From the IMG/VR virus record IMGVR_UViG_3300035659_000014, positions 1 through 57,339 of that record: 57,339 nt of DNA, one strand, 5' to 3'. The stretch comes from a virus. Made by a program: the position numbers and the translations under genes. Below are positions 18,617 to 57,339 of this stretch, one piece after another; the first letter of the stretch is position 1; each line of letters opens with the position of its first letter. The notes beneath the pieces are model-generated. The model saw nothing but the letters and a program-made list of their open reading frames with translations. It had not been told where the DNA came from and made no database searches.

Positions 18617-18670
18617 GTAACCTCCTGGTCGCAGAAACCCCTTGACTGAGCTGAACCGTGCGCGCACAAT

Positions 18671-19321: not shown

Positions 19322-19397
19322 GCCAATTCGTGGTCGATTCGCGCTCGGCTTCTCGATTCTTGCGTTCATCGTTTCACTCTCTCCCGGAGGTGCGCCG

Positions 19398-23523: not shown

Positions 23524-25156
23524 TGGTCACTCCTGGAGTCACTTTGCAAACGCACCACGTCGCAGAGGCCGGCGCCGAGACGGTCAATTCGACGGCCGTG
23601 TCCACTGTCTCGCTCACCGGCGTCGTCGTCGTGCCCGAAATCAAGGCGCCCGTGAGTAGGTTGTAGATCCCGAGCGTCACCGAGACGGCGCTGTGTAGCG
23701 ACCGTACGATACCGAGCAGGGTGAAGAGGTGCCCGGCGTGCGCCGTGCCGCCCCAGCGGAAGGGCCGCGCCTGCTGCAGCTCGTAGTAGGTTGCCGCCGT
23801 CCCGATGATCGGATCGCGCCGTGACCCGCCCAGATCGATCGTCGCGAACCCGACGCCACCGGAAGTCGGCACCGCGCCGCCACCGATCACCGTCGTCACC
23901 CCGCTGCCGCCGCCCAGAGACTTCGCCAAATCGCGCCATGAACCTTGGTAGATGGTCCCGAGGATCCCGGAGCCTTCGTAGCGCAGACGTTCGATATTGG
24001 CTTCCTGGAACGTCTGGACTTCGGTGAGTAGATAGGTGCCGTTCACGCCACGACGCGCGCAAACGATCGCTTGGCTCTTGCCCGGCGCCAGCCCCGCGGT
24101 CTTTGTTCCATAGAAGAATTCGTCCGTGTCGATCTGCCGCTGCGCGCGGTACGCATCGGCGAGGGCCTGCGCGCGGACGCGCTCGAACACGGTTGGTTCC
24201 TCGAGCGGGATCTCGACGGCGGCGCCGCTGCCGACCGAGACGACCGTGCCAGGGAAGGCGCCGGTGTAATTCGTGTAGATGCTCTCGGCGCCGCCGATGA
24301 GCGTCTGATCGCTACGTTGGTACAACGAATTGTCCGACGCCCGGTAGGCCCAGGCCGTGCTCGTATCCGGATAGATGCAGACCGGGTGATAGACCGGCCC
24401 CGGGACCGTCACGATGTTCGGCACGGTCGCCGCTGGTACATCTAGGGCAAAGATGCGCGTGACCCCATTGCCCGCGTGGGCCTCATTGTCGATCCAGCGC
24501 TGTCCCTGGCCGAATCGGAGGATGACGGTGTTCGCGTAGTTCGTGCGACTCTTTCGGCGCCGCGGCTCGCCCTGAATGTGGCCGTCCCCCTCCGCGATTG
24601 ACCAGGCTGGCGCGCCGGTGCCCGGCTTGAAGACTTGCAGCTCATCAGTCGGCGCGATGCGCCAGACCAGGTTTCCGAGCAGCGCGCAGAGTTCATTTAA
24701 CACTTCGGTGAGCTGCCGGTAGTCGTACGGGAGCGCGGGGAGTGTGCCGGTCGCCCCAATGACCGCCGTGAACCAGATCCCGTCTGCTGCGAGGTAGGTC
24801 GTCACCAGATCGGTGACGACCGTGTCAGGATCGGCAGCCGCGGCGTACGTCTTCAACACGAACCGCTCGTCGCACCGTCGCGCCATGCCGCGCGCGTCGA
24901 TCTGGATTGAGAGGATGTTCTTTCGGCCGCTTTCTTCTGGCGAGACCACGGCGCCATGGAAGATCGGGGTGCCGATGGGGTTCTCGACGAGCACGTCGTC
25001 ATCGATCGCGGGCCGGTAGCCGCCGATCGCGTGCATGTCGCGGAAAGTCAAGGAGAGGGTCGAAGCGCTACAAAGCGGATCCCGGATGCGCAGGGAGCCC
25101 TTCCGCGCCCAGTGGGTCTTGTCGAGCGACGTGGCCATCGTGATGACGAGGGCCAT
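23480..25156 (-). CDS. Tail hub / tip attachment protein
   Basis: 558 aa. It begins with a Dit-like strand region (LRIRDPLCSASTLSLTFRD), then a hub/Tal-like domain (AVVSPEESGRKNILSIQIDA, VLNELCALLGNLVWRIA) and a C-terminal carbohydrate-binding-like domain (VSVTLGIYNLLTGALISGT). It follows the tape measure gene directly, the canonical position of distal tail and baseplate hub proteins in siphophages. Confidence 0.75.
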   Translation of the reverse strand: MALVITMATSLDKTHWARKGSLRIRDPLCSASTLSLTFRDMHAIGGYRPAIDDDVLVENPIGTPIFHGAVVSPEESGRKNILSIQIDARGMARRCDERFVLKTYAAAADPDTVVTDLVTTYLAADGIWFTAVIGATGTLPALPYDYRQLTEVLNELCALLGNLVWRIAPTDELQVFKPGTGAPAWSIAEGDGHIQGEPRRRKSRTNYANTVILRFGQGQRWIDNEAHAGNGVTRIFALDVPAATVPNIVTVPGPVYHPVCIYPDTSTAWAYRASDNSLYQRSDQTLIGGAESIYTNYTGAFPGTVVSVGSGAAVEIPLEEPTVFERVRAQALADAYRAQRQIDTDEFFYGTKTAGLAPGKSQAIVCARRGVNGTYLLTEVQTFQEANIERLRYEGSGILGTIYQGSWRDLAKSLGGGSGVTTVIGGGAVPTSGGVGFATIDLGGSRRDPIIGTAATYYELQQARPFRWGGTAHAGHLFTLLGIVRSLHSAVSVTLGIYNLLTGALISGTTTTPVSETVDTAVELTVSAPASATWCVCKVTPGVTNEPIWATAYLGLTR

Positions 25157-28100
25157 CAGCCCGACCTTCCCGCAATGGCCGTCTTAACCTCTTGCAGATT
25201 TTCGAGCAGGACTTCGACGAGGACACGTTCGTTGATGGTGACGATGCGCACCGGCAGGTTCACCGAGCCGCCGCCGAACGACCCGCCCGCGTTCAGGCGA
25301 TCGAGCCCCGCCCGCCCGAGCGTCCGCATCCCGCGATGGTTGACGACGCCTTCGTACGGCAGCGCCCAGATCGGGACTTGCCCGCCTGCGTGGAATTGCT
25401 GCGCACCGGCCCAGACGCCGGGGACATAGGCACCGCCGTGACGAGTGATCCAGGGTTCGACCACGCCGCCGGAGTGGTATTCGCGTTCCGCGCCTTCCTC
25501 GATCCAGGGTGGGGCCGCCGCGGTCCCGGTCGGCGCCCGGGTCGCGATCTGATAAAGCAGCTCGCCCATATACTCCGTGGCGGCAGCCGTCCGGTCCGTA
25601 GCGCTGGCCGTGCGATTGGCCGCGTCCATCTGGGCCTCTCCGATGATGCCGGCGGCCTCGGCTTCCGCGAGCAAACGCTTCGTGCCTTCATCGAGCGTGT
25701 ACTCGGGGTGCCGTTGCTGCAGCATCCAGAGGGTCTGCAACGTCGGCTGCATGACAGCCAACGCCTCTGCCTCCGAAAGCCCGGGCTTCCCTTCAAGTCC
25801 CACCATGCCCCTGAATTGGCCGGTAGCTGTCGCAGCCAGATCCTGGAACGTGGCTTGTGTCATCAGGCCGTAGTTGGCAGTCCCGACCGCGAGATTGTTC
25901 AGGGCCGTGACGGCGCCGGCCTGTTCCGGATTCGCCCTTGCCCAGTCGGAGATATGAACGAGCGACCCGAAGGCACCTTCGGCCGTCCAGTGGAACTGCT
26001 CGGCCGCCTTGGCAAGATCGTCGAAGCCCGGAGCGAGGTCCGTCAGGGCTTCAAGCAGTGACTTGCCCGCTGCGCGTTCGAGGTTGAACGTGGCCACCAT
26101 CAGCCGACCGGCGCGCGCGTACGCCTCGGGGCCTTCGGCGCCCAACGCGGCAATTCTCGCCTCGGCCCGCGCCCGTTCTTCCCGTTTGGCCGCGAGATCC
26201 GCCGTCACCTTGGCCGCGTCTTTCTCAGCCTGCATGCGCCGATCAACAGCAATGGCGTACGATTGCTCGGCGCTCTCGGCAGCTTCGGCCGTCCCCGTCC
26301 GGTAGTCGCGCTCGGACCGGGCCTTCTCGGCGGCAATCTTGGCCTTCTCCTCTGCCTGCCGCAGTCCATCGACGCCGATGGCCCCCAGGTCCGTCTGCAC
26401 GACGTAACCTTCCAGCGTCCGGGCCCCGCTGGCCTGGGCGTCGGTCAGATCGCGAATGGCGTCGGCGGCCGCCTTCGCCAGGTCGATCTCCTTCGCGAGC
26501 GCTGCGATCGGCACCACGGCGGCAGCCAGTGCGTTCGCCCCACTGACGGCGAGACCTCGCTGTTTTTCGAGGAAGTCCGTCACCGCCTTCACTTCGAGGC
26601 CGGCGTCCTTCGTACCCCGAATGAAATTGAGCAGATCCTGCGTGACGAGTCCGCCCTTGTCCGTCGCCGCCATCAGGCGGTCGGTGAAGGCGGCCAATGT
26701 CTCCGCGAACAACTTCGCCGTGTCCTGGAGGCCCTTCAGGCCCGCCGTACCCGGGCCACCCGTGCCACCCAGAGTGAACGCCGCCGGCAGATCCACGCCG
26801 AGAATTTTCGCCCAGCGATCGATTTCGGCCAGCGATCCGTACGTGCTGACCAGACTCGCCTTGAGCTGGTCGAACGACGTGTTCGCGTCGAGTTCCTTGA
26901 GCTTCCATTGGGCGTAGGTGACCGTCGTGTCGAGCCGCTTCTTGAGCTCTTCCGCGTACGGATCGACGTGCTTGAAGAGACCATAGAGGAAGCCGACGCC
27001 CGCGCCAATGATCGTGCCGTAGGGCACATTCACCTCGGATCCGATGGCGGCACCAGTCGCCGCCCCGCTCAGGGCGTTCTTCCAGCGCGACGTCGAAGAC
27101 GTGGCCTGTTCCATCGCCGCTGCCATCTGCAAGACCGAAACGGTCAGTGTCGCAATCCCCTGTGCGGTCCCGATCGCCCCGTCTTCCATGCCGTAGAGCG
27201 TCTCGCCGAAGGTCCTCGTGGCCTTGGCGCCCAGAACCATCGACGAGATCGTCATCCCGAGCCATCGCGCCATGTCGGACATCGATCCACCCGAAACCTG
27301 CGCCAACTGCTGGAAGGCCGCAGCGATCCCGTCGAGGTCCGCGAGGAAACCTTTCACCCACATGCCACGCGCGGACTGCTCGGCGTCGTACCACTGCTGC
27401 CAAGCCGCGCGCAGTTGTTCCGCGGTGTACGTGCCCTTTGCGCGCATCGCTTCGAAATCTTGTCGGGCGATCTGCGCAGTCTTGTCGAGTTCGGTTTGCG
27501 TGAAGATGCCCTGCGCGCGCAGCCGTTCTTCGACGGTGTCGGCCGTGCTGTTGGCCAGATCGATCTGGTGTTGGTAATAGGCCGTGAGCTCGGCCGTCGT
27601 CATCCGGGCGAGTTCGGAATCGGCCCCGAACCGGCGCTTGGCGGCATCGATGTCCGCGTCCCGTGCGCGGGTGATCTGCGCGACTTGGAGGTCCGCGCCG
27701 TGTAGGGCTAGGTCTGCGTTCTTATCGTGGAATTCCTTGTAGGTCGTCAGTTGTTCGAGAACCTGCGCGTTTGTCGCCGCCTGCTGTTTCTTCGCGATTT
27801 CTTCCCAGAGCGCGGTCGTCTTCACGTGCAGATCGGCGACGGACTTCGCCCAGAGGTCGTCAACCGCGTTACGTTCTGCCGCCGCCGTGCTGTAACTGCG
27901 GATCGCGCCTTCGCCGATGTGAAGCAGGAGGGCGATTTGCCCCTCTGCCAGGCCGCGCTTCTGGTAGTACTGAATGTCGATTTCCTGCTGCGCACTGAGC
28001 GGGATCTGGGCTGCGGTCGCCGCCTTGACCGCCTCCGCGTACTGCTTCTGTTTCTGGGCGGCTTCGTCGAGGATCTTGAGGTAGGCCACGACTGAAGCGA

Positions 28101-29304
28101 GCGCCAACTTGCGGTCGTTGGCGATCTGCTGGTCGGCCAACCCCTGCTCGTGCGCGAGCCGCACGTACAACTGTTGGTCGGCAGTCAACGGCACCAGGGC
28201 AGCGTGTCCCTGCTGCCATGTCGTGATCTGGTTCCGCCAACCCTGGGCATCAGTCGTGAGCGTCTGCGCCACCTCGGTGTTGGCTACCGCGAGATTCTTC
28301 TGGCCGGAGATAAGGGCGACCGTTTCCCGCGTCCGGGCTTGCAACCCGGCAATCTCCCCGGCCAGCACTTTTGCCCGCATCTCGTCTGTGGCCGTTGACG
28401 CCGCCGGAACCGGCTCGGTAGCGGGTCGTCGAAACCCCCAGCCAACCCGACCAGTGAGTAAGTCTGCCGCTGGCAGGACCGTGTCGGGGTGCAGCACGCG
28501 CAGCCAGAAGCCTGCTCCCTCGACAGCGCCAGTCTTAAGCCAGCCGACCAGGATGCTGAATTGCTCGCCCACTTCGTGGACACGGGCGATCGAGTCCTCC
28601 GAAGCGATCAACCCTGTCTCTCGGGCAAACTCACGCGCCTCCGGCACACCGCGATTGATGAGGGCCATGAGTTGCTGGACGCCGCGGCCGTAGAGATCGG
28701 TGCCGAGACGTGCCTTCGTCCCCTCGGAGTCAACATGCCTGAGTGCTTCAGCGGTCTGCTCGAAGACCTGGTCAGGGCTCAGCCCGCGCAGTCGTTCGGT
28801 GCTCAACCCGAGGAAGTCCAAGGCGGCCCTGGTCGCGACGTCCCCTTCTGCGATTCGGCGCGAGAGTTGGAACACGCCCTGCGCCATCGTCTCCATGTCG
28901 ATGCCGACACTTTTGCCCGCGACGCCGAGCTCCTGCACGGCCGTGGTCGACATGCCACTGGCGAGCGCAATGTCGTGGACCCGTTCCGCGTAATCGATCA
29001 GATGCTTGATGGCCTGGACAACCCCGGCGAGCGACAGCGCCACGCCGAACGCCCCCGCCAGCCGCGTCACGACACTCATGGTGCCGCCGAGCTTCTGCGC
29101 CGTGGCGTCGAGATTCGTGGTGTGCTTGCCCGCTTGCTGCGCCGCTTGGCCGCTGGTCTGAATCGCACGGCCGTACTGGTCAACGAGCCCGCTGGCGCGG
29201 GTCGCGGTCTGGCCGGTCTTGTCGATCTCTTTGTCGAGCGTACGGAAGGCGGTGGTCGCCTTGCCCGTATCGACATCGACGACGATCGTGAGTTGTCGGG
29301 CCAT
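25156..29304 (-). CDS. Tail tape measure protein
   Basis: 1382 aa from ATG 29304 (MARQLTIVVDVDTGKATTAF); an ATG at 29316 is too close to the GAGGG site. Long helical N-terminal part, hydrophobic mid-segments (VVTRLAGAFGVALSLAGVV; ATGAAIGSEVNVPYGTIIGAG), Ala/Glu/Lys coils and a Gly-rich C-terminus. At about 0.15 nm per residue this predicts a tail near 200 nm. Largest gene of the genome, between chaperones and hub. Confidence 0.9.
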   Translation of the reverse strand: MARQLTIVVDVDTGKATTAFRTLDKEIDKTGQTATRASGLVDQYGRAIQTSGQAAQQAGKHTTNLDATAQKLGGTMSVVTRLAGAFGVALSLAGVVQAIKHLIDYAERVHDIALASGMSTTAVQELGVAGKSVGIDMETMAQGVFQLSRRIAEGDVATRAALDFLGLSTERLRGLSPDQVFEQTAEALRHVDSEGTKARLGTDLYGRGVQQLMALINRGVPEAREFARETGLIASEDSIARVHEVGEQFSILVGWLKTGAVEGAGFWLRVLHPDTVLPAADLLTGRVGWGFRRPATEPVPAASTATDEMRAKVLAGEIAGLQARTRETVALISGQKNLAVANTEVAQTLTTDAQGWRNQITTWQQGHAALVPLTADQQLYVRLAHEQGLADQQIANDRKLALASVVAYLKILDEAAQKQKQYAEAVKAATAAQIPLSAQQEIDIQYYQKRGLAEGQIALLLHIGEGAIRSYSTAAAERNAVDDLWAKSVADLHVKTTALWEEIAKKQQAATNAQVLEQLTTYKEFHDKNADLALHGADLQVAQITRARDADIDAAKRRFGADSELARMTTAELTAYYQHQIDLANSTADTVEERLRAQGIFTQTELDKTAQIARQDFEAMRAKGTYTAEQLRAAWQQWYDAEQSARGMWVKGFLADLDGIAAAFQQLAQVSGGSMSDMARWLGMTISSMVLGAKATRTFGETLYGMEDGAIGTAQGIATLTVSVLQMAAAMEQATSSTSRWKNALSGAATGAAIGSEVNVPYGTIIGAGVGFLYGLFKHVDPYAEELKKRLDTTVTYAQWKLKELDANTSFDQLKASLVSTYGSLAEIDRWAKILGVDLPAAFTLGGTGGPGTAGLKGLQDTAKLFAETLAAFTDRLMAATDKGGLVTQDLLNFIRGTKDAGLEVKAVTDFLEKQRGLAVSGANALAAAVVPIAALAKEIDLAKAAADAIRDLTDAQASGARTLEGYVVQTDLGAIGVDGLRQAEEKAKIAAEKARSERDYRTGTAEAAESAEQSYAIAVDRRMQAEKDAAKVTADLAAKREERARAEARIAALGAEGPEAYARAGRLMVATFNLERAAGKSLLEALTDLAPGFDDLAKAAEQFHWTAEGAFGSLVHISDWARANPEQAGAVTALNNLAVGTANYGLMTQATFQDLAATATGQFRGMVGLEGKPGLSEAEALAVMQPTLQTLWMLQQRHPEYTLDEGTKRLLAEAEAAGIIGEAQMDAANRTASATDRTAAATEYMGELLYQIATRAPTGTAAAPPWIEEGAEREYHSGGVVEPWITRHGGAYVPGVWAGAQQFHAGGQVPIWALPYEGVVNHRGMRTLGRAGLDRLNAGGSFGGGSVNLPVRIVTINERVLVEVLLENLQEVKTAIAGRSG

Positions 29305-29319
29305 CGGCGGTTCCATCCC

Positions 29320-30115: not shown

Positions 30116-30191
30116 TGGTAGCGGGCGCAGGAATTGAACCTGCCGTAAGACGGGTATGAGCCGTCCATGTCCACCAGTTCATCTGCCCGCG
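30116..30191 (-). tRNA. tRNA-Met (anticodon CAT)
   Basis: 76 nt including encoded CCA. Anticodon arm GACGG-CTCATAC-CCGTC, variable loop TTACG, T arm GCAGG-TTCAATT-CCTGC, acceptor CGCGGGC with GCCCGCT: six pairs plus a C1-U72 mismatch, A73. A 1:72 mismatch is a hallmark of initiator tRNA, but the anticodon stem lacks three consecutive G-C pairs and position 8 is not U. It lies between tail tube and chaperone on the late strand. It could also be a CAU-Ile tRNA after lysidine modification. Confidence 0.8.
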
Positions 30192-32563: not shown

Positions 32564-32773
32564 GTGATGACCGACGAAGACCGCGTCCTGCCGTTTCTAC
32601 CGCGGCCGCCAAGATCACGCGACATCATCGTTGTCGAACAACCGCACTCACCGACGCATCCCGTAATCGTGCGCGCGATCATCCCCTCCCCAAGTGAAAT
32701 ACCCGCCGACATCGTACCGTTCCCGCCTCGGGATCACGGCACGCCTCCGGACTCCTCGAACGGATCAACATGA
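32564..32773 (+). CDS. Orphan Pro-rich ORF, possibly leaderless
   Basis: 69 aa (GTG 32564 or ATG 32567), MTDEDRVLPFLPRPP, then IIVVEQPHSPTHPVIVRAII. It occupies the only gap between two minus-strand head genes. A perfect TATAAT at 32551-32556 ends exactly 7 nt before the GTG, so a leaderless transcript is possible; no good -35. It overlaps the convergent glycosyltransferase by 40 bp. Tentative. Confidence 0.4.
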   Translation: MMTDEDRVLPFLPRPPRSRDIIVVEQPHSPTHPVIVRAIIPSPSEIPADIVPFPPRDHGTPPDSSNGST

Positions 32774-35748
32774 ATCGACTCGCCCTCGATCTGCTTGCAG
32801 ACCTGGGCGACCTCATGATCGACGAATCGCTTCAGTTCGACCCCATCCCGCACCCAGATCCGTTTCGGTTTCGCGTGCCCGCCGTCCATGCCGCCATGCT
32901 TGCCACCGAGGGCGAGTTCGATCTCCAAGCCGCCGAGTTCCTTCACCGCTCGCTCGTACCAGGGCCGCGCGATGCCGTGATACTTGTCGGCCGGGTCCGC
33001 GAAGTGCCGCTCGAAGAGTTGAATCGCCGTGTGGTAGTACGCCTGCGCCGTCGCCGTCATGGCGCCGTTGACCGACTCGCGGTCATAGTCGGCCAGGTTG
33101 ATCAGGTCGCGCAGCACCAGCACGCCGCCCAGCCGGCGTTCGGGGAACGCCTTCCGGTCCTTCTGGAGGAGCGGCAGGTTGCGCTTCAGCATCTTCTCGC
33201 GGCGGATGCCTTCGTGCAGATACCCGAGGTGCGCGATCGCCACGTCGTGGATTTCGAGGCCCGGATGAATGTCCGTGTTCGCGTCCTGCCAGCCGGGTTG
33301 CTCGTGCACGCAGCCGAAGAACCGGATCTCGGGGACGCGCCGGAAGATCCGGATCGGGGTATCGGCGTGCATCGGTGCATCGAGCATCAGGTGGTTCTGC
33401 CGCACCGCATAACCCTTGAAGATCCCGCCTTCGAGGTACTTGCCGAGCGCGCCCGATCCCGCGAGGAATTCATCCGTGTCGATCCAGAAGAACCACTCGC
33501 CCGTACACGTCGCGAGCACCCGGTTGCGCGCACCGGCAAAGCCTTCGTCCTGATCCGCGATTGACCCGAGGCGCAGGATCCGCGCCCCGTAGCGTTCGGC
33601 AATTGCGATCGTGTCATCGGTCGAGCCGGTATCGCCCAGGACGATCTCATCGGCGATCGCCCAGATACTATCGAGACAGCGCGCCAGATCGAGCCCGGCG
33701 TTGCGCGCGATAAGGCCCACCGAGAGACGGGGCATCGGGCGGGTCGTCAGGATGCGCTGCTCGACGTCGCGCGGGCGAGCCGGACGGCCTTCCGCCTTGC
33801 GGTAGCGGATCATCCAGTGCCCGGACGCATTCCCCCGGTTCGTCGGGCCGACGTGCAGATAATCAACTGACACGTCCCGTTTCGCCCCGAAGACCTCGTG
33901 CAAATCGCCCCAGCCGAAATGATGCACGTGCCCGCGGAGGAGTGGGATCGTGCGGGGCAGGAGTTCGACGAACGGGCCGTGTGGAACGGTGTAGAGGATG
34001 ACGGCGCCATCAGCGACGAACTGTTCGAGATGGTCGATCGCCTTGTCGCAGGCCGCGACGTGTTCGAGGAACTCGCCGACGAACATCCCGTCGACCAATT
34101 CGATTCCGGCCGCGTCGGGACCGAGCGGCAGCGCCCAGCCGAGGTGACTGTCTGTCGGCGGGGCCTGGCGCTCGAAGTCCCAGACCGACAACTGTTCGAA
34201 GCGGACGCGGTCCGCGAGTCCGAGTTTCTCCGCCATCGCCCGAGCGCGCACCACGTTCGCCTCGCTGTAATCGACGCCGACGACTCGAATCTCGGGATAC
34301 TTCTGCGCGAGCAACAGCGCGAACGACCCATTCCCGCACGCCACATCGAGGACATCCTTGCAGCCAGCGAAGTGCGGCAGGACGATCCCCATGCGCCCGC
34401 GTGTGCCCTCGTTCTCCATCTCGACTTCGACGTCCTTGACTGCTCGCTCGCCGTAGTCCTCGGGGCCCTGCTCCTCGCCGGCAATCACGCGGCGGCAGAG
34501 TTCGTCTGCGAAGTAGGCTTCGCCAACTTGGTCAGGCGTCGCGCACTGCAATCCCTGCGCAAGGATGCCTCCGGCGAGCTGCTTCGCCGCAACACAATCG
34601 TCCTCGTGCAGCAGTTGTCGCAACACGCCGATTTTGTTCGCCTTGAACCGCGCCCGGAACGTCTCTTGGAGCCAGCCGTCCCATTCAGTGGCCAGAACCT
34701 CGAATGTGTAGGCTCGCGCATGCTCGCGGCCTTCCCGTTGCGCATCGCGGTAATCCCGTGACTGACGCGCGCACCCATCCAGCGCCTCGCAGACCGCGTC
34801 GAGCGACTGCGCTTGGTAATCGGGAGATTCGGCATCGCCATGAATGAGCGCCCCGCTCGGGACCGTCTCGGGCAGCGCGCCTTTGAAGGAGCCGACGAAC
34901 GGCGTCCCGCACCCCTGCGATTCCGCCGCCGCAATGCAACCCGTCTCCGCGAAATCCTTGACGCCCGGATACCACATCACGGCGGATTCGGCGATCGCCC
35001 GATAGAGATCGGGCTTGTTCAATTCGCCGAGATAGGCGATGCCGCCGACCTGGTCGTTGACACGCTGCACCTCCGCGTCGAATTGCGCGCAAATCTGGCC
35101 CCAGCCCTGCATGTCGTACATCGAGCTGTAGCGGCAAATCTGGAGCGTTGTCGCCGGATGCCGCGCACGCAGGCGCGGCCACATCGCAAGCAATGGGCCC
35201 AGGCCCCGCTCGGGCCGGCTGATATGGATGATCCGGTTCGGATCTTTCGTGACGTTCGTCGGGACCAGCGACGGATCGAACCCGTTGCGCGTCACGTAAG
35301 CCAAGCCCTTGAGTTCCGGCAACCGCTCTTCGTACTGCTGCCGCTGATACTCGGACACATAGACCATGCGATCGACCGCCCACATGATCGACATGAGGGC
35401 GGGCGGCACCATGAGCAGATCCTGGTTCCACAGCAGGCGCAACTTCGCCGGGATCCGGTGCGCGCCGAAGATCGGGAACATCCGCAGCACGCAGAACACG
35501 TCCCAATCCGTGAAGTTCGAGATTTCGACGATGCCCTCGGCCGGTTGCCACCGTACGCCGGCCTGGTCGGGACCGTAGCAGTCGGGATCGAGCTTGGTCG
35601 CCAGGATCTGGACGTCGTGGCCCTTCGCCTTCAGCGCGCGCGCCAGGCCCAGACAGGCAGACTCCGACCCACCCAGCGAGCAGGCGCCACTGAGGACGTC
35701 CGGGGTGATCGGAACCGAATCGACGTAGAAACCGATCGTGAGTCGCAT
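32734..35748 (-). CDS. Three-domain glycosyltransferase-methyltransferase-glycosyltransferase
   Basis: 1004 aa from ATG 35748 (MRLTIGFYVDS). Residues about 1-375: GT-B fold glycosyltransferase (GGSESACLGLARALKAKGHD; HISRPERGLGPLLAMWP; ETGCIAAAESQGCGTPFVGS). About 420-650: SAM methyltransferase (KDVLDVACGNGSFALLLAQK, VVGVDYSEANVV). About 670-960: GT-A/GT2 domain (LSVGLIARNAG, GDTGSTDDT, FWIDTDEF with the DxD-like site) and helical tail. It probably builds or caps a methylated glycan on a virion protein or the host envelope. Located between connector and capsid genes. Confidence 0.85.
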   Translation of the reverse strand: MRLTIGFYVDSVPITPDVLSGACSLGGSESACLGLARALKAKGHDVQILATKLDPDCYGPDQAGVRWQPAEGIVEISNFTDWDVFCVLRMFPIFGAHRIPAKLRLLWNQDLLMVPPALMSIMWAVDRMVYVSEYQRQQYEERLPELKGLAYVTRNGFDPSLVPTNVTKDPNRIIHISRPERGLGPLLAMWPRLRARHPATTLQICRYSSMYDMQGWGQICAQFDAEVQRVNDQVGGIAYLGELNKPDLYRAIAESAVMWYPGVKDFAETGCIAAAESQGCGTPFVGSFKGALPETVPSGALIHGDAESPDYQAQSLDAVCEALDGCARQSRDYRDAQREGREHARAYTFEVLATEWDGWLQETFRARFKANKIGVLRQLLHEDDCVAAKQLAGGILAQGLQCATPDQVGEAYFADELCRRVIAGEEQGPEDYGERAVKDVEVEMENEGTRGRMGIVLPHFAGCKDVLDVACGNGSFALLLAQKYPEIRVVGVDYSEANVVRARAMAEKLGLADRVRFEQLSVWDFERQAPPTDSHLGWALPLGPDAAGIELVDGMFVGEFLEHVAACDKAIDHLEQFVADGAVILYTVPHGPFVELLPRTIPLLRGHVHHFGWGDLHEVFGAKRDVSVDYLHVGPTNRGNASGHWMIRYRKAEGRPARPRDVEQRILTTRPMPRLSVGLIARNAGLDLARCLDSIWAIADEIVLGDTGSTDDTIAIAERYGARILRLGSIADQDEGFAGARNRVLATCTGEWFFWIDTDEFLAGSGALGKYLEGGIFKGYAVRQNHLMLDAPMHADTPIRIFRRVPEIRFFGCVHEQPGWQDANTDIHPGLEIHDVAIAHLGYLHEGIRREKMLKRNLPLLQKDRKAFPERRLGGVLVLRDLINLADYDRESVNGAMTATAQAYYHTAIQLFERHFADPADKYHGIARPWYERAVKELGGLEIELALGGKHGGMDGGHAKPKRIWVRDGVELKRFVDHEVAQVCKQIEGESIHVDPFEESGGVP

Positions 35749-35835
35749 GAGGAAGATTCCCTGCCTGCCCTCCTGCCTCCATAGTGGGGCGCCGGGGGGA
35801 GGTGGCCCCAGCGCCCCCAACGTCGCACCCCACGG

Positions 35836-36207: not shown

Positions 36208-37359
36208 TCACACGCGCAAACGCGCCACCGCATCGGCATGATGCAACTCGACCGTGTACTCGCCGACAACCATGCCCTTGCGGTTGTCGCCGCTCTTGCC
36301 CATTTCCTGATAGACGAAGTTGCGGCCCTGGAGCGGCAACACGCGAATCCGCTCCCGCGGCACGAGGATCAGTTCGGTCGCCGCGAGTGACCGGCTCAGG
36401 AAGACCGTGCTCTGTCCGAACGGCCCCTCGTAGACGCGCACGATGCGCTTGAAGAGTTCACTCGCATTCGTGTCCTGGACCTTCGTGTCGTTCATGTCCG
36501 AGATGTTCCGGAAGAATGTCCGGCCCGCAATGATCCCCCAGGTCTCCGACACCGAGGCGCCCGCCTGGTAGCACTGCTCCCAGATGTCCCCGAGGTAGAG
36601 ATGGGGATTCGCCGCGAACGACGACGCGGCGATCGCCGAGTTGATCGCCGTGACCTGCCCGCGCAGGCCCAGCATCGTCCGAGTTACCGTGGAGGTGCCG
36701 AGGCTGTTCGCCGCGTTCAGCACGCCCCGCACGACTTCGGCCTCGAGGATGCCGGGGATTTCGCGGAAGACTTTCGCGCGGGCTTCCTCATACCCGTCTC
36801 CGCCGAGCGCCGGGACCGCGATCGCCGTGCCGGACGCCGCGATTTCGATCGAGAAGTACCCGACCGTGTTCGCCTTGCGGTTGCCGAGCCGGGCGGTGTG
36901 CATGCCCGAGTGCTCGTGCCCTTCCTCGGCCGCCGGCCACCGCACGAAGAGCGATCCGCCCACGGCGAGTGAGCCGACCGCGCCGGCGGCGCCGTCGTAA
37001 TTTCGGGAGCAGAGAATCGAATTCGCGCCTGGAATGCTGGTGATCTGCATCACCTCCGGGCAGGCCGACTCGTTCTCGAGCAGCGTCCCGACCGTCAGGG
37101 CCAGACCGAGGCCGTTGATCGTGACTCCGGTAGCGGTGGCGACGCTGTTGACGGCCGTGCTCACGATGATGTAGCGCGGTCGCAGGAAATCCTCGATGTA
37201 CTCATGCTTGGGCGACGTGGCGACGTACCCGCTCGGATCGCCCAGCCAGTCGAGGAACGGCGCTTCGTACGGCGCCAGGGTGCTGATGATCCTCGAGATG
37301 TCTTCACCCTGCGTGTTCGCCGTGAATGCTTTGTTGGTGCTCAGTCCACTGAAAGCCAT
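36208..37359 (-). CDS. Major capsid protein, SU10/DUF5309-like
   Basis: 383 aa. GEDISRIISTLAPYEAPFLDW, HEYIEDFLRPRYIIVSTAV and FVYQEMGKSGDNRKGMVVGE are typical of SU10-type HK97-fold capsid proteins, which lack a long cleaved delta domain. Preceded by a scaffold gene. Site GGGAGCACACC. This gives the head lineage of the phage. Confidence 0.85.
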   Translation of the reverse strand: MAFSGLSTNKAFTANTQGEDISRIISTLAPYEAPFLDWLGDPSGYVATSPKHEYIEDFLRPRYIIVSTAVNSVATATGVTINGLGLALTVGTLLENESACPEVMQITSIPGANSILCSRNYDGAAGAVGSLAVGGSLFVRWPAAEEGHEHSGMHTARLGNRKANTVGYFSIEIAASGTAIAVPALGGDGYEEARAKVFREIPGILEAEVVRGVLNAANSLGTSTVTRTMLGLRGQVTAINSAIAASSFAANPHLYLGDIWEQCYQAGASVSETWGIIAGRTFFRNISDMNDTKVQDTNASELFKRIVRVYEGPFGQSTVFLSRSLAATELILVPRERIRVLPLQGRNFVYQEMGKSGDNRKGMVVGEYTVELHHADAVARLRV

Positions 37360-42121: not shown

Positions 42122-43729
42122 TCACTGGCCGGCCACTGCCGGCGCCTGGTCACCCGGTACGGGCATCGCGCCCGCCTGTTTCATCCGATCCACGAGCGCC
42201 TGACGTGCCGCCGCCAGCGGGGAGGCTTCCTCGGCTTGCTGATCGATCGCCGCCAGAATCTTGTTCTTCAAGTCGTCCGGCAGATCGGGCAGGAACTTGT
42301 CCACAAGTCGTTTCCGCAATTCCTGCTTGAACTCGATCGGCATCCCAAGGTTGAGCGCGGCTTGCGCTTCTTCGAGCAGATCCGCGAACGGCGTCACGTC
42401 GAAGGTGTCGGGGAAGCGCGTTTGAATGGCGTCCTTCATGTAGGCTTGCTCACCCTGGTCCGCGCCCTTGGTCGCCAGATAGAACAGTTTCGCAATCGCG
42501 TAATCGGCGCGCTCGATCTCGTCGGCGTACTGGGAGAGCTGCGTGTTCAAGTCTTCACGTTTCACCAACAACGAGCCAGTCGCTTCCGCATCGCGCGAGT
42601 CGGCTTCCCAGCCAATCCCGGCCAAGCGGAAGATCGCCCGCAGAAGTTTATCCTCGGCCCGCTCGTAGGCGGCCGTGTTCTCGGCGCCTGGCGACAGCAT
42701 CTCCGCCGGCTTGTGACTGAACAGGACGTTGCCTGTTCCGATCTGCTGACCGAGCAGGGCTTTCTCGCTTTCCACGGACCCCTCGTCCCCGATCGGGATA
42801 TTGATGATCGAGAACGTCTGCTTCCGCAACAGCTCGCGATGCTCCGAGATCAGGTTGTAGTAATCAATGAACAACGATGGATCGCCGAGCAGCGATGCAC
42901 CGATGAGCGGAATCAATGGCCGACGGTCGCCGAAGACGATGACAACCGGCAGGCAGCCGAATTGGTGCGCGCCCTGGTCGAGTTGTTTTCCGGTCTGGTC
43001 GTAGAGCCGCCACTCGTTCTCATCCACGTAGCGTACGCGGTACTGCGCGGTCTCGAACGGTTGGTCGAGGGCGGCGCGCGGCGCGGGTTCGAGAAACTTC
43101 ACGGCCTTCAACACGCCGAGCTCATCGACCCAATCCGGCACATCGATCGGCGTATACGTACGCAGGAATGGTTGCGGGGCATCGGCGGCCGTGCGTGTCT
43201 CGCCTGACGTAGGGGCCGCCTGCTTGGGCCGGTCCATGTAGAGATACACATGCCCGAATGTCGCGATACCCGCCCAAATCTGCGGCCAGAAATCATCGAT
43301 GTCCAGGCCGGCGCCATCCACGTTTGTCCACCACTTTTCGATCGGCGTCTCGCCCGTCTTGCTCCGCTTCGTGCCCCCGCCCATGATCCGCGTCGGACCC
43401 TGGCGGAACAGCGAGCCGGAGAACGCCTTGACGATCTTGCGCGCCCAGTTCTCGTACCGGGCGAGCCGACGCCGTTCGAGCAGTTTTGCCGTCGGCATCC
43501 GCGGGTTGGGGTTCTCAATCCAGGTTGTCGTTTCGATCTGCGTGTCCGGATCTGTAGTCTTGACCTTGGCCGAATGGTCGCGCCACTCGCGCGGATGCGG
43601 AATCAGGTAGGTGCCGTCGGTGAACCCTCCGATCCCCTCGAAGGCATGCGCGAGCTTCTGCCAGATCGGGAGCCACGCCTGGTAGAGCGGGTGCTGATAC
43701 TGCGTGAAGCGCTTGCCCGTTAGAGCCAT
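42122..43729 (-). CDS. Portal protein
   Basis: 535 aa from ATG 43729. WARKIVKAFSGSLFRQGPTRI, then the long helical wing region (LISEHRELLRKQTFSIINIPI), TGNVLFSHKPAEMLSPG and DEIERADYAIAKLFYLATKG are typical of DUF4055-type portals. It forms the dodecameric gate for DNA packaging. Overlaps the terminase end by 10 bp. Confidence 0.85.
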   Translation of the reverse strand: MALTGKRFTQYQHPLYQAWLPIWQKLAHAFEGIGGFTDGTYLIPHPREWRDHSAKVKTTDPDTQIETTTWIENPNPRMPTAKLLERRRLARYENWARKIVKAFSGSLFRQGPTRIMGGGTKRSKTGETPIEKWWTNVDGAGLDIDDFWPQIWAGIATFGHVYLYMDRPKQAAPTSGETRTAADAPQPFLRTYTPIDVPDWVDELGVLKAVKFLEPAPRAALDQPFETAQYRVRYVDENEWRLYDQTGKQLDQGAHQFGCLPVVIVFGDRRPLIPLIGASLLGDPSLFIDYYNLISEHRELLRKQTFSIINIPIGDEGSVESEKALLGQQIGTGNVLFSHKPAEMLSPGAENTAAYERAEDKLLRAIFRLAGIGWEADSRDAEATGSLLVKREDLNTQLSQYADEIERADYAIAKLFYLATKGADQGEQAYMKDAIQTRFPDTFDVTPFADLLEEAQAALNLGMPIEFKQELRKRLVDKFLPDLPDDLKNKILAAIDQQAEEASPLAAARQALVDRMKQAGAMPVPGDQAPAVAGQ

Positions 43730-45162
43730 GACAGGTTCACCGGACCATCGGACCCGGACGTGCGCAACCGCCCGCCCGGGAACTCCACCGCGATCCAGTA
43801 GCCCAGGGCATCCGCCGGGTGCGTGTGCGTCTCGCCCTGTTTCTTCTCGAGCGCCTCGGTGCCGCTCTTGATCTTCGTCATCTGCAGCGAGCGCACGAGC
43901 GGGCGTGTCATGCAATCGCGCGCCGGCAGGGTCTTGCGAATGAAGAGCCGCATCTGTCCGAGCGCGTTCAGGAATGACGTGTTGACCGCGTTCAGGCGGG
44001 TCGCGACCGGCGGATTGCGCGTCGGGACCTTCGTCGTCAGCGGGCCGATCGTCGCCAAGCGCTCGCGGATGATCTCGTAATTGCTCTTTATGCTCGTGGT
44101 GGTGCGATTCTTCCCCGTCTCATCGCCGTAGATCACAATCCCCGGGGGCCACTTCGGGTAGCGCCGCACGATCTCATCGCAGGTTTCCATGACCGTGGAC
44201 CCGCCGTAGATCGTGATCCCATCGATGACACGCGCCTCGGGGCCGAAGGGCCCGGGCGACTGCTGCCCGATCACGCACGTCATGGGATCGACGTTGAAAT
44301 CGAACGTCAGGCGTAGCGGCAGTGCCGGCAGGATCAGTACGTCCGGGCGCCAGTGGACTTCCGCATCGAACATCGGGTAGGCGAGCGCGCCCGTCACATT
44401 CACGGCTCGTCCGCCCAGATAGACGAGTGCCTCGGCTTCCGTCAAGTGCGCGCGAATCTGGCGCACGAACTCCGGGTTCGCCCGCATCAGTTCGACGTTC
44501 TGCTGCGTCTCCATGACATACAGCCGATACTTCGCTTCCCGGTCGGCGCCGAAGTAATCCTGCAGGTACGTGATGCCCTCGGGCGTGCCGGCCGCCACCT
44601 TCTGCCGCAGCCGGGCCCGGACGTGGCGCACGCGCGCGCAGGTGTTGCGCCAGGCTTCATGGCTGATGGAATGGGGCTCGTCCGTCCCTGCAAACGCCAT
44701 GTTGGGACCGCGAATCCGCTCAGGCGCCTCGGCGGACACGAACTGAATTGGCCCGCCGCCGATCCATGACAGGACGTGCTTCGTCTGGTGATAGTGAAAT
44801 TGGTCGGCCGTGAGAAACCACGGCTCGCCGGTTGTCGGGTCCAGATCGATGAGCGTCGGCAGGATCGTCTCATCGACATGCCCGTACTCAGGGACGGTCC
44901 ACAGACCGGGCAGCGGCCGGTTGATCGCGGAGAGCCTGAGCATCTTCGCGAGCAACGTCATCGTCTTGCCGGCGCCCCATCCACCCTGTAGCAACAGGTT
45001 CCCGTCCGCCGTGTCGTCGTCGAAGAACAGCTCCTGCGGCGTGTCCGGAATGGGCGCCCAACGAAACGCGAGTCGGCCATTCGCGTTGATGACGGCCATC
45101 GTCAGGAGTCCCCAAGCCGCAATCGCCACGAGCAGCGCCAAGCGCACACGTCGCACACTCAT
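43720..45162 (-). CDS. terL: Terminase large subunit
   Basis: 480 aa. ATPase: Walker A QGGWGAGKTMTLL, Walker B region MAFAGTDEPH. Nuclease: RLTFDFNVDP, IVIYGDETGKNRTTT and THPADALGYWIAVE supply the acidic triad. Motor and headful or cos cutting enzyme. ATG 45162 overlaps the TerS stop as ATGA, but gives an N-terminal hydrophobic stretch (LALLVAIAAWGLLTMAVI); ATG at codon 22 would remove most of it and may be the real start. Confidence 0.9.
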   Translation of the reverse strand: MSVRRVRLALLVAIAAWGLLTMAVINANGRLAFRWAPIPDTPQELFFDDDTADGNLLLQGGWGAGKTMTLLAKMLRLSAINRPLPGLWTVPEYGHVDETILPTLIDLDPTTGEPWFLTADQFHYHQTKHVLSWIGGGPIQFVSAEAPERIRGPNMAFAGTDEPHSISHEAWRNTCARVRHVRARLRQKVAAGTPEGITYLQDYFGADREAKYRLYVMETQQNVELMRANPEFVRQIRAHLTEAEALVYLGGRAVNVTGALAYPMFDAEVHWRPDVLILPALPLRLTFDFNVDPMTCVIGQQSPGPFGPEARVIDGITIYGGSTVMETCDEIVRRYPKWPPGIVIYGDETGKNRTTTSIKSNYEIIRERLATIGPLTTKVPTRNPPVATRLNAVNTSFLNALGQMRLFIRKTLPARDCMTRPLVRSLQMTKIKSGTEALEKKQGETHTHPADALGYWIAVEFPGGRLRTSGSDGPVNLSWL

Positions 45163-45653
45163 TGCCCCTCCGGGGTTTTCAGCCCGCCATCCGGCAAGTA
45201 CCGGCCGCCGAAGACGACCGACGTGACGGCGATCGGGATCGAGCCGCCGCCCGGTCCGCCGATTTCAACGTGGTCGCGATACTTCTGCGGCTTCTCCGCT
45301 CTCAGTCGCGCCAGCAGAAGCATGTCCGAGTACTTTCTGACCGCTCCGCAGACCTTCCCCTGGTAGAACGCCGGCTCCAACCAGCCCTCAATCGCCCGTC
45401 GATCGGCTTCCCGCTCCAGCAGATCAGCCCGCTGCTCCCTGGCGTCCTCGAATGCCTTGACGTAGGCAGCATCCACCTCCAGCCAGTTGTAGTGCGTGCG
45501 CCGGCCGATTTTCGCTTTGAGACTCGCGTGGTAGACCGTGCCCTCCAGCATGTAGGCATCAAGGAATGCCCGCTGCAGATTTTCGGTGGTAGGTGGTTCG
45601 TGTGCCACGGAATGCGCCGTCACACGCCGAGCAGATTTCTTGCGCGTCGTCAC
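45159..45653 (-). CDS. terS: Terminase small subunit-like DNA-binding protein
   Basis: 164 aa from GTG 45653. Basic N-terminus, then a helix-turn-helix-like region (NLQRAFLDAYMLEGTVYHAS, IGRRTHYNWLEVDAAYVKA) and a helical oligomerisation part (ADLLEREADRRAIEGWL). Recognises phage DNA for packaging. No ribosome site; a -10 hexamer ends 7 nt before the GTG, suggesting a leaderless late transcript. Confidence 0.8.
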   Translation of the reverse strand: MTTRKKSARRVTAHSVAHEPPTTENLQRAFLDAYMLEGTVYHASLKAKIGRRTHYNWLEVDAAYVKAFEDAREQRADLLEREADRRAIEGWLEPAFYQGKVCGAVRKYSDMLLLARLRAEKPQKYRDHVEIGGPGGGSIPIAVTSVVFGGRYLPDGGLKTPEGQ

Positions 45654-48632: not shown

Positions 48633-49489
48633 TCTCGTACCCTCAGATCCGCCGGCCATTCAGTCGGATCCGCCCCCTTGCCCGTAATCGTTCTGAAAAT
48701 TCTGTCGCGCTCGGCGATGCCATCACGGACGGGGTTTGCCCCAAGTTGTTTTACGTACACTGACACGCCCGCCGCTTGGCACTGCTGGATGATGCTGCGA
48801 ATCCAAGCCGTGTCGCAAGGCCGCGCCTTTGGGCCCGATTCACCTCCAACGATCACGCCGTCGAGATGTTCATTCGGAACTTGGACTGGCACGACGTCGC
48901 CGTGTCGATCGCGCTCGCCCTCGCAATGCCACCCCCGAAGCCAGCCAGAAGACGAATGAACATCGCCGTCAAGATCCACCGGTTCAAGTAGCGGCTCGAG
49001 ACTTGCGATGCGCTTCGCCGCCGGCGTCTCGAGTAGCAGCGGCACGAACAGGTTGGCATCCGCCTGCGTCGAACAGGACACGCCGAGCGTCAGATTTCTG
49101 GGCATCGGAAACGCCGAGGTCCATATCTCTGCAAACCCGCGCGCCCGTCCCGGCCGCTTCGTCAAAACGATGTATTCGTGTTGCGGCGCCGACGTGCTGA
49201 TGGTCACGAAGACATCGTTGACGAACGCGAACGGCACGTCCTCGTGAAACAAATCGCCCATACTGCACACCAAGACGCGCCGCGGCTTTCTCCAGCCGCA
49301 GGGCAGAGCGAGCCGATCCATGTGCAGCACGATCTCCGAAAAGTCGCGGCCCTTCCACGATCCCATGCCGCGACGCGCGAAGGCCCGGGCGTAGCAGTGC
49401 TTGCAGCCCTCGGCAACCGGCGTACACCCATTCACCGGGTTCCAACTCGCCCCACCGTCCAGCCATTCGATCGCGCTCTTGTCGCTCAT
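48620..49489 (-). CDS. DUF5131 / phage Gp37-Gp68 family protein
   Basis: 289 aa. SAIEWLDGGASWNPVNGCTPVAEGCKHCYA is the family signature with the C-x7-C-x2-C-like cluster; VLVCSMGDLFHEDVP, GVSCSTQADANLFVP and VIVGGESGPKARPCD follow. Probably a radical-SAM-like or iron-sulfur protein acting on nucleic acid; substrate unknown. Site GGGGAGGGGAC. Confidence 0.85.
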   Translation of the reverse strand: MSDKSAIEWLDGGASWNPVNGCTPVAEGCKHCYARAFARRGMGSWKGRDFSEIVLHMDRLALPCGWRKPRRVLVCSMGDLFHEDVPFAFVNDVFVTISTSAPQHEYIVLTKRPGRARGFAEIWTSAFPMPRNLTLGVSCSTQADANLFVPLLLETPAAKRIASLEPLLEPVDLDGDVHSSSGWLRGWHCEGERDRHGDVVPVQVPNEHLDGVIVGGESGPKARPCDTAWIRSIIQQCQAAGVSVYVKQLGANPVRDGIAERDRIFRTITGKGADPTEWPADLRVREWHS

Positions 49490-50469
49490 GTCCCCTCCCC
49501 GACGAATCGCACGCCGGCGCCGGGCTTCACGGCCTTGACCGCGGCGGCCAGTTGCAAGGCGTAGTGCTTCTGAATCCAGTCGGTCAATGGAGCTGGGCCG
49601 CGCACCGTAATCAGCCCGTCCTCTTCGGCTTCAAGGACACAGGGGCGGAAGTAGGTCTGGATCGTCAGCGTGTTCATGCCGTCCGATGCAGCGATTTTCT
49701 CGACGATACGAGACCAGGTGTCGTTCCTGGGAGCGGGCGGCTTGAACTTGGCCGCCATCGCTGCGATTGAATCCCAATCTTTCACGAAGACCTCCAACTT
49801 ATGCCCGCATTTCAACCAAAAGTCATGCTTGGCCGAGAAGAACACATCGATCCTCTCGCGGACCACATCGACCCCAAATTCCTTCACGAGTTGCTTGATA
49901 GCGCCAGAACGGTCCTTCGTGATTCTGGGATTCTGCCCGTATCTCGTCTTGAAGCACTCGCAGAATCGGGCAATGGCGGGTTGGGCACTGTCGGCGCCCG
50001 CCGAAGGCGGTACGTACGTCTTCCCTTCTCTTAAGTTCTCTTGAGTTCTCTTAAGGATGGTGTCCGGGAGTATCCCGGAGTTTCCCGGATTCTCCGGGAT
50101 AAGGTCTGCCGGCGGCGCAGCGAACCGAGATTGTTCGCCCCGGCGGTCCTTTCGTAGCCCTGGCTGGCCATCGTCGAATTTTAAAATCTGGATGACGATG
50201 CCTTCGCCAGCCGGATAGCGCAAAATGAGCCCAGCGAGACGCATGGCTTCGAGCGCCGCCTCGAACTCTTGTTCTGTTCGCCGCGCGGTCGGCCAGATCG
50301 CGTACTTCACGCCGTACGCGTCCCCAGCCAGCCGTCCGAACACATCGCTGTTGGTGATCAGCATCGGATAAAGCACCTGTGCGAACTCCCCGATCTTCGG
50401 CATCGCGCCAAGCGCTGCGAACTTGCGTGAACTGCCGAGCGTCCGCAGAACGATGCGACCTTGCGCCAT
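49486..50469 (-). CDS. Replication initiator with DnaA-N-like C-terminal domain
   Basis: 327 aa. N-terminal winged-helix-like part (KIGEFAQVLYPMLITNSDVF, EFEAALEAMRLAGLILRYP), a central linker, a helical middle (SGAIKQLVKEFGVDVVRERID) and a C-terminus DTWSRIVEKIAASDGM...TYFRPCVLEAEEDGLITVR...WIQKHYALQL resembling the DnaA domain I helicase-interaction module. The linker DNA carries ten-bp iterons, as in the lambda O gene. It likely binds the origin and recruits host helicase. Confidence 0.75.
   Translation of the reverse strand: MAQGRIVLRTLGSSRKFAALGAMPKIGEFAQVLYPMLITNSDVFGRLAGDAYGVKYAIWPTARRTEQEFEAALEAMRLAGLILRYPAGEGIVIQILKFDDGQPGLRKDRRGEQSRFAAPPADLIPENPGNSGILPDTILKRTQENLREGKTYVPPSAGADSAQPAIARFCECFKTRYGQNPRITKDRSGAIKQLVKEFGVDVVRERIDVFFSAKHDFWLKCGHKLEVFVKDWDSIAAMAAKFKPPAPRNDTWSRIVEKIAASDGMNTLTIQTYFRPCVLEAEEDGLITVRGPAPLTDWIQKHYALQLAAAVKAVKPGAGVRFVGEGT
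50026..50101. repeat. 10-bp iteron array, candidate replication origin
   Basis: Three tandem TTCTCTTRAG units (50026-50055), then, six bases on, four quasi-units TCCGGGAGTA, TCCCGGAGTT, TCCCGGATTC, TCCGGGATAA (50062-50101). All are spaced by 10 bp, about one helical turn, inside the initiator gene. The first group is AT-richer than the surroundings and could assist melting. Confidence 0.75.
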
Positions 50470-51860: not shown

Positions 51861-52604
51861 CTACACAAAGCAGTACCCGCTATCACACAACCCCGTGAAC
51901 AGGTCTGGTTCATCGTCGCCTGTCCAGTCCCGCAACGGGACGCGCCTTCTTGTCAGCCACAGATCGTCGTCTTGTTCGCGGATCGCATCTTCAAGTTGTG
52001 CAGCCCGCTTAAAGTCGGTTGGATAGTCGTGCTGAAGTGCTGTCCACTCTGCCACCGTATGGTTTGGACACATCCAACAGCTTGATCGTGGCGGGTCGGG
52101 CCAACCCATCGAGTTGACCAGCGTCACACAGTCACGGCGTGTCATTCGCTTTTCGATGAGTGGATACCAGTTCTGCCACTTTCCGTCTTCGGGCTTCACG
52201 CGGCGGGACTCGTCAAGGCTGATGCCGATCCAGATCCGAAACTGCGTCGCCGGGTACTGTTCATTTGCCCACCGCTGCAAGACGCGCCGTTTCCACTTAT
52301 CGGAACAGAACGTCGGCAACTTCCCCGTACCTGTGAACGCCGGGATAAGTAGATCGCCGTTGCCTGCGTAGAGATCCACCGTCGCATACTGACTTTTGGG
52401 TATCCGATGGAGTGTCACGCCGACAGACGCCAGCGCGGGGACGATAACCACGTTGTGGTACTCCCAGGTGGCTGACGCCTCCCGTTCGGTGTCCACGATG
52501 GCTGCCAAGTCTGACTTGGGTAGATCGCCGCGCACGATTAGGGCGGCAATCGCCGCGCTCTGCGTACCGCCCCCCGAGGACCAGACTTGAACACGCTCAC
52601 TCAT
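51861..52604 (-). CDS. PAPS reductase-like PP-loop protein
   Basis: 247 aa. VQVWSSGGGTQSAAIAALIV (PP-loop SGGxxS), then TFCSDKWKRRVLQRW, IGISLDESRRVKP and SSCWMCPNHTVAEW. Phage members of the adenine nucleotide alpha-hydrolase superfamily are thought to act in sulfur or nucleotide metabolism or nucleic-acid modification; the exact reaction is unknown. ATGA-coupled to the acidic peptide upstream. Confidence 0.85.
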   Translation of the reverse strand: MSERVQVWSSGGGTQSAAIAALIVRGDLPKSDLAAIVDTEREASATWEYHNVVIVPALASVGVTLHRIPKSQYATVDLYAGNGDLLIPAFTGTGKLPTFCSDKWKRRVLQRWANEQYPATQFRIWIGISLDESRRVKPEDGKWQNWYPLIEKRMTRRDCVTLVNSMGWPDPPRSSCWMCPNHTVAEWTALQHDYPTDFKRAAQLEDAIREQDDDLWLTRRRVPLRDWTGDDEPDLFTGLCDSGYCFV

Positions 52605-55398: not shown

Positions 55399-57255
55399 TT
55401 AAACCGCCACCGCGGCCCCGCACCGCTCGACTGTCGTTGGCCCGAAATTCTTGACATCGCGCCGCAGGCGATAGAACGTCACGCCCTCGACGGGGTCCGC
55501 GCGCAGTTCGCGCTCGAGCTTGTCCATGTCCTTCTCGCTCTTGGTCGCCATCGCGATGACCTGCCCCGTCCAGGCGCTCACGAGCTGCTGGAAGACCTCG
55601 CGACTCGCCTCGTCGAAATGGTCGACGCGATCGATGACGACCCACCCGAGGCCGGTCACGTCGGCCAGGGCCATCTGTAGCGCGATGCCGACGCGGATCT
55701 GTTCGGTCTCGGAGAGCAGCGTCGCCGGGAACCCGTTGACCAGCACGGCCCACGGATCCAACGCGAAGTGCAGCTCGTACCCGAACATCACGAGCGCTTC
55801 GTTGATGCTGCCCTCGAACGCCCCGAGCGCCGTTTCCAGCGCCTTCAGGCGGGCACCGGACGGACCGAGCAGGTCACAGAGCCGCTCGAGCTCGTCGACG
55901 CGCCTGGCGGCGGCCTGGCGCTCCTGGGTCCGCTTCTGGCGCTCGGCCAGCTGTGCCTTGATGCGGTGGGCCTCGATCAACATCTGGTCGCCGGCGGCAA
56001 TCCGCTCCTCCAGGGTGGCGATGGCCTCTAACTCGACGGCCGAGCCGTCCGGCTGGCTGTCGCACGTGGTGAGGTCCTGTTCGAGCTTCGTGACGGCCGC
56101 CTGCGCCTCGGTGAGCATCTTCCCGTCACGCACCTGCTGCTCGCGCATCACCTTCAGGTCCGCGAGCTGGGCGGCCTGCTTCAGCCGCAACTCGTCCGCC
56201 GTGGCGAGCTCCGCGAGCGCCCCCTTCGCTTTGTCCTGCTGTTCGAGGAGTCCGGCAATCTGCGCGAGGATCTTGCGCGTGTGCGCGGCAAACGCCGCCC
56301 CGGGCGTCTTGCACGGGATCGCGGGATCGAGCAGGCACCCACGTTGCGGCTCGTGTCCCTGGATCGCTTTCGCGGCCGTGTCGAGCGGTTTCAACTTGCC
56401 TGCCACCTCCGCGATGAACGCCCGTTGCACGTCGAGCGCCTTCGCATCGACCGGCGACGCCTCGATCGCCTTGGCCAGCGCGGCGATCTGATTCGCGAGG
56501 TCCTTCGGATAGTCCCGGGCCCCGATCCCCGTCTGCACCTTGACGACCTTCTCGCGCGCGAGCGCCAGCTGCCGCGAAAGTTCGGCCGCCCGGCCGCGGT
56601 CCCGGGCTGTGGTCGCCTGCTGCTGCGCGTAGAGCTCGCGCTCTGCCTTCCGCAGCACCTCGATCTGCTCGGCGAGGTCGTCGGGCGGGAGTTCGCCCTC
56701 GGGCAGTGCCGGGATAACGATCGCGTTGAGCAACCGCTTGGCGATCGTCCGCTCCTCGTAGGCGTGCTGGTAGCGCAGGTCGATCTGGGCCAGCGTCAGC
56801 AGGTCGCCGTCGATCGGCACCTTGACGTCGAGCACGTCGAGCAGGATCTTCTGGCCCTCGGCCTCGCTCGTCACCTTGGGGTCGAGGAAACTGGTGCCGT
56901 TGCACAAGATGCGCACGACGCCCGGATTCATCGGCGGCAGCGGGCCTGACAGTTGGCCGTTGCCGTTCGCGGACACGCTGCGCGTGTACTCCTTGCCATC
57001 GAGGGTGAGCCCGACGGCGAGTCGCGCGGCGCACGTTGGCTTGCCGAAATCGCGAACGAGCGTTTTCGCATTCTTTCCGCCCGCGTCAGTTCCTCGGACA
57101 CAGCGACCGGACAGCGCGAACTCCAGACCATCTCCACAGCTACTTTTCCCGGTTCGGTTGGCGCCAATCAAGAACGTGATCGGCTGGTCGAAGATGAGTT
57201 CCGCGTCCTGAAAGCATCGAAAGTCTTTCAGGACCAGCCTATTGATTCGCATCAT
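55399..57255 (-). CDS. SMC/Rad50-like ATPase
   Basis: 618 aa. Walker A FLIGANRTGKSSCGDGLEFA, long coiled coils (EQIEVLRKAERELYAQQQ; LTEAQAAVTKLEQDLTTC) around a Cys-bearing turn (GCLLDPAIPCKTPG) that could be a hook, signature LSETEQIRVGIALQMAL, Walker B GWVVIDRVDHFD. The usual catalytic Glu after Asp is Arg here, as in some phage members. It probably works with RecT and the nuclease in recombination or DNA end processing. Starts ATG-ATG right after the recT stop (across the circle). Confidence 0.85.
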   Translation of the reverse strand: MMRINRLVLKDFRCFQDAELIFDQPITFLIGANRTGKSSCGDGLEFALSGRCVRGTDAGGKNAKTLVRDFGKPTCAARLAVGLTLDGKEYTRSVSANGNGQLSGPLPPMNPGVVRILCNGTSFLDPKVTSEAEGQKILLDVLDVKVPIDGDLLTLAQIDLRYQHAYEERTIAKRLLNAIVIPALPEGELPPDDLAEQIEVLRKAERELYAQQQATTARDRGRAAELSRQLALAREKVVKVQTGIGARDYPKDLANQIAALAKAIEASPVDAKALDVQRAFIAEVAGKLKPLDTAAKAIQGHEPQRGCLLDPAIPCKTPGAAFAAHTRKILAQIAGLLEQQDKAKGALAELATADELRLKQAAQLADLKVMREQQVRDGKMLTEAQAAVTKLEQDLTTCDSQPDGSAVELEAIATLEERIAAGDQMLIEAHRIKAQLAERQKRTQERQAAARRVDELERLCDLLGPSGARLKALETALGAFEGSINEALVMFGYELHFALDPWAVLVNGFPATLLSETEQIRVGIALQMALADVTGLGWVVIDRVDHFDEASREVFQQLVSAWTGQVIAMATKSEKDMDKLERELRADPVEGVTFYRLRRDVKNFGPTTVERCGAAVAV

Positions 57256-57339
57256 CTACCCCCTCAGACCTTCCAGCGTGACGACTTCGCGCCCGGACTC
57301 GGGGTCTGCTGCGTGTTCGTCGGGGCCTGCTGCTGCGGG
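57256..57339 (-). CDS. recT: RecT-like protein, C-terminal 27 codons (across circular junction)
   Basis: In frame with 963-1 if 1 joins 57339: PAAAGPDEHAADPESGREVV...LRG then TAG at 57258-57256, immediately followed by the ATPase ATG. Same Pro/Ala/Glu-rich composition as the tail at positions 1-200. Confidence 0.75.
   Translation of the reverse strand, partial: PAAAGPDEHAADPESGREVVTLEGLRG

Follow-up and report, generated by a model that had tools for sequence, protein, structure and literature searches.

The Pseudomonas phages phi297 and AUS531phi carry genes for an exonuclease, RecT and an SbcC/Rad50-like ATPase on one strand, in an order like the one described here, and their RecT proteins are 43-44% identical to the RecT of the present record over about 70% of the query. 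Closed circular contigs in virus catalogues, which are marked by a direct terminal repeat, provide a second point of comparison, as they are likewise circular maps with an arbitrary cut. CheckV requires a direct end repeat of at least 20 bp for a closed genome (PMC8116208). A benchmark of long-read assemblers reports that sequence can be missing or duplicated where circular contigs end (PMC6966772).

The stretch of DNA analyzed here, referred to as the window, is a virus entry of exactly 57,339 bases taken at its full length, and its ends are therefore the ends of the record. Its GC content is 64%. A sequence-only reading had proposed that it is a complete circular phage genome cut inside recT. 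Our analysis indicates that the window very probably represents the entire genome map of a temperate phage in the free state, opened within recT.

Results

The recT gene starts with GTG at position 963 on the minus strand and runs for 321 codons to base 1, where it is cut by the start of the record (positions 1-963; phrog_561, RecT-like, E 8.7e-62). The core of RecT is complete and the cut falls within its variable tail. As the sequence-only reading had it, joining base 1 to base 57,339 continues this frame for 27 codons to a TAG at 57256-57258, directly followed by the ATG of a 618-aa open reading frame (55399-57255). The stretch at 57256-57339 (minus strand) would thus be the 3' end of recT, an identity to which the gene order points. 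The open frame proves little, because random frames of 27 codons are open at 61-66% of positions in this sequence (for 81 nt, 5342 of 8135 positions sampled on the minus strand and 5000 of 8135 on the plus strand), and we rejected it as proof of closure. Reading across the join in the two alternative frames meets its first stop after 24 codons in one case and none within the stretch in the other.

We found no direct repeat of 25 bp or more joining both ends in the window. The longest exact overlap between the ends is 4 bp, with CGGG at positions 1-4 and again at 57336-57339 (neither assigned to a strand), the right-hand copy probably being redundant. A closed contig usually shows itself by a direct terminal repeat of 20 bp or longer; none is present here, and this counts against closure. 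In this the record differs from the circular contigs of virus catalogues; since its ends share only 4 bp, the CheckV rule (PMC8116208) would not class it as closed. The tetranucleotide closeness of the two ends was unremarkable, and was counted against closure as a non-decisive point. In favor of closure, the 4-bp overlap leads into a better-coding recT frame, and in draws of random ends 4 shared bases occurred in 0.6% and any exact overlap of 4-20 bases in 0.9%. The record ends do not lie beside the terminase genes (43720-45653).

Across the join, the next gene after recT encodes an SbcC/Rad50-like ATPase (55399-57255, minus strand; phrog_77, E 2.3e-24; AAA_23, 36.4 bits against a cut-off of 27) and lies on the same strand as recT. 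Upstream of recT are a gene for an HNH endonuclease in the same operon (976-1635, minus strand; phrog_374, E 2.4e-61) and one for an exonuclease (1617-2420, minus strand; phrog_69, E 6.2e-19). At least four HNH-endonuclease-like genes are present in the genome (976-1635, 6794-7174, 10242-10979 and 50486-50941).

This gene order was compared with that at 163 RecT loci, consisting of the best 80 of 463 viral-contig relatives, the best 80 of 87 genome relatives and three regions of named phages; the window itself (L001) was left out of the counts of ATPase position and ATPase matching. Among these best RecT matches, 60 of the 126 loci with sufficient sequence had an ATPase-like open reading frame within 5 kb downstream of recT, as did 13 of 137 on the upstream side, and none lay on the opposite strand. 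When loci were grouped by RecT at 70% identity and ATPases of any subfamily were counted, this difference was gone (9 of 37 downstream versus 8 of 40 upstream), which weighs against closure. The best-match loci held 76 candidate ATPases near recT, 62 downstream and 14 upstream. At E 1e-3, 59 of the 76 matched the window ATPase; every one of these lies on the downstream side of recT, and the 14 upstream candidates gave no match. The window, too, has a gene of this ATPase subfamily after recT on one strand, and only across the join. In three loci the ATPase gene comes directly after recT, at 43, 70 and 95 nt (L012, L158 and L123, respectively). A different SbcC-like ATPase, of 633-676 aa, is encoded upstream of recT in L020, L021, L088, L103 and ten similar loci, and these upstream proteins are without a match to the window ATPase at E 1e-3. 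Judged from their sequences, two SbcC-like ATPase subfamilies seem to keep to opposite sides of recT. A comparison of the window ATPase with named phages gave no match at E 1e-5.

The exact join depends on whether CGGG is counted once or twice. Counted once, it places the reading in the +1 frame and gives a RecT of 344 aa that ends with TGA at 57264-57266. The ATG of the ATPase gene lies 8 nt further on and is preceded by GAGGGGG. Codon usage scored this frame at 6.8 bits over the whole end stretch, against 0.3 for the frame of the printed join, and, within the first 73 nt, at 14.5 bits compared with 1.4. The proposal that the 27-codon continuation is similar in composition to the rest of recT is thus unsupported at the codon level. 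In the tail, the third codon position is G or C in 21 of 23 codons with CGGG once and in 18 of 27 as printed, and the GC3 of the whole recT open reading frame, printed tail included, is 0.87. Calibration on the last 27 codons of 36 genes showed the true frame losing in 2, by at least 7 bits in 1; across all 81-nt windows it lost by at least 7 bits in 28 of 1285.

The last 16 residues of RecT carry a charge of +3 if CGGG is counted once and of -2 with the printed join, and the tail charge is positive in 28 of 38 relatives, among the best RecT matches, that have the ATPase downstream. These 38 are part of a set of 128 tails from the 163 loci, from which the window itself, repeated tails and frames open at the locus end had been dropped; one tail, L075, is a shortened frame and not a true tail. 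Similarity of the tail to those of relatives did not separate the two joins (z of 2.35 versus 2.32), and was set aside as a means of choosing between them. Given closure, it is fairly likely that CGGG is redundant at one end, which would make the genome about 57,335 bp long and RecT 344 aa. A gap of a few bases at the ends, instead of an overlap, is possible. A 4-bp redundancy would give RecT the wrong C-terminus in the printed join. The join put forward earlier, with its 27 codons and TAG, agrees with the letters of the record and is probably 4 bp too long.

The genes expected of a complete tailed phage include terminase, portal, major head protein and lysis genes, and all were found, each on the minus strand: the small (45159-45653; phrog_4044, E 1.9e-35) and large (43720-45162; phrog_10250, E 1.6e-11) terminase subunits, the portal protein (42122-43915; phrog_145, E 3.3e-33), the major head protein (36208-37359; phrog_1328, E 3.5e-22) and an endolysin of the cell wall hydrolase type (15873-16412; phrog_938, E 7e-13; PF07486, 47.2 bits against a cut-off of 27). 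Neither PHROGs nor Pfam recognized a tail gene among the proteins scanned, and the sole sign of replication in these searches was a weak DnaA_N match on 49486-50469 (E 0.0077, below the cut-off). No family with a known function was matched by several of the large late genes, and the large proteins encoded at 16704-18212, 18209-19369, 19879-23523, 23480-25156 and 25156-29316 are late products without an assigned role. The earlier statement that nothing is missing therefore holds for terminase, portal, head, endolysin and integrase, and does not extend to the tail or to a clear replication gene; from the sequence, it is plausible that no essential module is missing.

Other genes were seen in passing. 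Among the late genes and adjoining the head protein gene, 32734-35820 (minus strand) encodes a protein of 1028 aa in which two regions are of glycosyltransferase type and one is of methyltransferase type. The early region holds a phosphoadenosine phosphosulfate reductase-like gene (51861-52604, minus strand; phrog_424, E 2.4e-30). A protein of 453 aa (12931-14292, minus strand) has an ATPase region, matches phrog_11143 (E 4.9e-106), a viral family of unknown function, and weakly resembles GNAT acetyltransferases, with a score slightly below the Pfam cut-off.

The lack of an end repeat, together with the absence of a recognized tail gene or clear replication gene, would also be expected if the window were a linear fragment of a larger phage genome, with recT running into unseen sequence, the last 84 bases forming the end of another gene, and genes missing in between. 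Moreover, in phi297 and AUS531phi the RecT and ATPase genes are separated by a small open reading frame and an FtsK-like gene, which are absent from the closed order of the window, and similar genes could be missing here. We consider such a fragment unlikely, as the cut spares the RecT core, the ATPase gene follows recT directly in some relatives, the frame entered through the 4-bp overlap codes well, and genes for terminase, portal, head, endolysin and integrase are all present.

The free temperate form is further suggested by the integrase (8761-9888, plus strand; phrog_1, E 8.6e-37) and a candidate attP site a few bases after it (about 9891-9941, plus strand). The candidate can be read as the 3' portion of a tRNA gene, with variable arm, T arm, acceptor end and encoded CCA, and its fold serves as further evidence for this reading; it scored 21.7 bits against the Rfam tRNA model, below the gathering score of 29. 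It occurs once in the window, with phage-family genes on both sides, and its att function is putative. Being internal and so flanked, it indicates that the ends of the record are not prophage borders, since an integrated phage would have its limits at this site and the record is cut elsewhere. A weak match to a possible repressor lies at 7735-8181 (plus strand; phrog_4583, E 2.5e-4). ARAGORN calls a tRNA-Met at 30116-30191 (minus strand), which is probably not a tRNA gene; at gathering scores, Rfam found no tRNA, nor anything else, in the whole window. The integrase and tRNA-derived att candidate could also belong to the record of an integrated prophage flanked on one side by host DNA. This is very improbable, as the att core is single-copy between phage-family genes and both record ends consist of phage recombination genes.

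The exact junction strings, as printed or with 0-30 bases between the ends, were absent from the viral contigs, and the exact junction strings were likewise absent from the RecT loci collected; no junction-spanning relative, provirus or integrated copy was found in the viral or genome contigs, a point against closure. The att core was not found in any genome of four sets numbering 27, 299, 80 and 79, of which the latter three were each centered on one of the 27, or in the viral contigs. No relatives were confirmed through the ATPase or, by scan, the large terminase in viral contigs, or through the portal in genome contigs.

Discussion

Our combined findings suggest that closure of the window into one map is the best explanation of the record, as the sequence-only reading had proposed, although the exact join and the statement that nothing is missing did not stand in full. 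This reading draws less on the open frame than on the gene order across the join, as seen in relatives, the shared strand and the single, internal attP candidate, all of which were observed directly. Physical closure of the ends is, we infer, highly probable. The DNA would have been free, either as a circle or as circularly permuted packaged DNA, and linearized inside recT. Crossing the join would restore one early minus-strand operon of exonuclease, HNH endonuclease, RecT and SbcC-like ATPase genes. The closure would be inexact, with CGGG probably to be counted once and RecT then ending at the TGA noted above. A closed map allows gene order, operons and absences to be read safely, and the knowledge that genes at the two ends of the record form one operon is useful to annotators. 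A whole phage genome opened at an arbitrary point is ordinary, and the case is otherwise routine.

With respect to known phages, the portal protein is similar over 70-86% of its length to those of the Pelagibacter phages HTVC026P and HTVC202P, the Nitratiruptor phages NrS-1 to NrS-3 and the Pseudomonas phage Nican01, with just 22-26% identity. Because of this low identity, the lack of a confirmed relative for the large terminase and the failure to find the att core in the sampled genomes, the sequence evidence on balance favors the view that the record is the full genome of a temperate phage from a deeply diverged lineage. Its recombination operon also differs from those of phi297 and AUS531phi in having an HNH gene between the exonuclease and RecT genes, where the two Pseudomonas phages have none.
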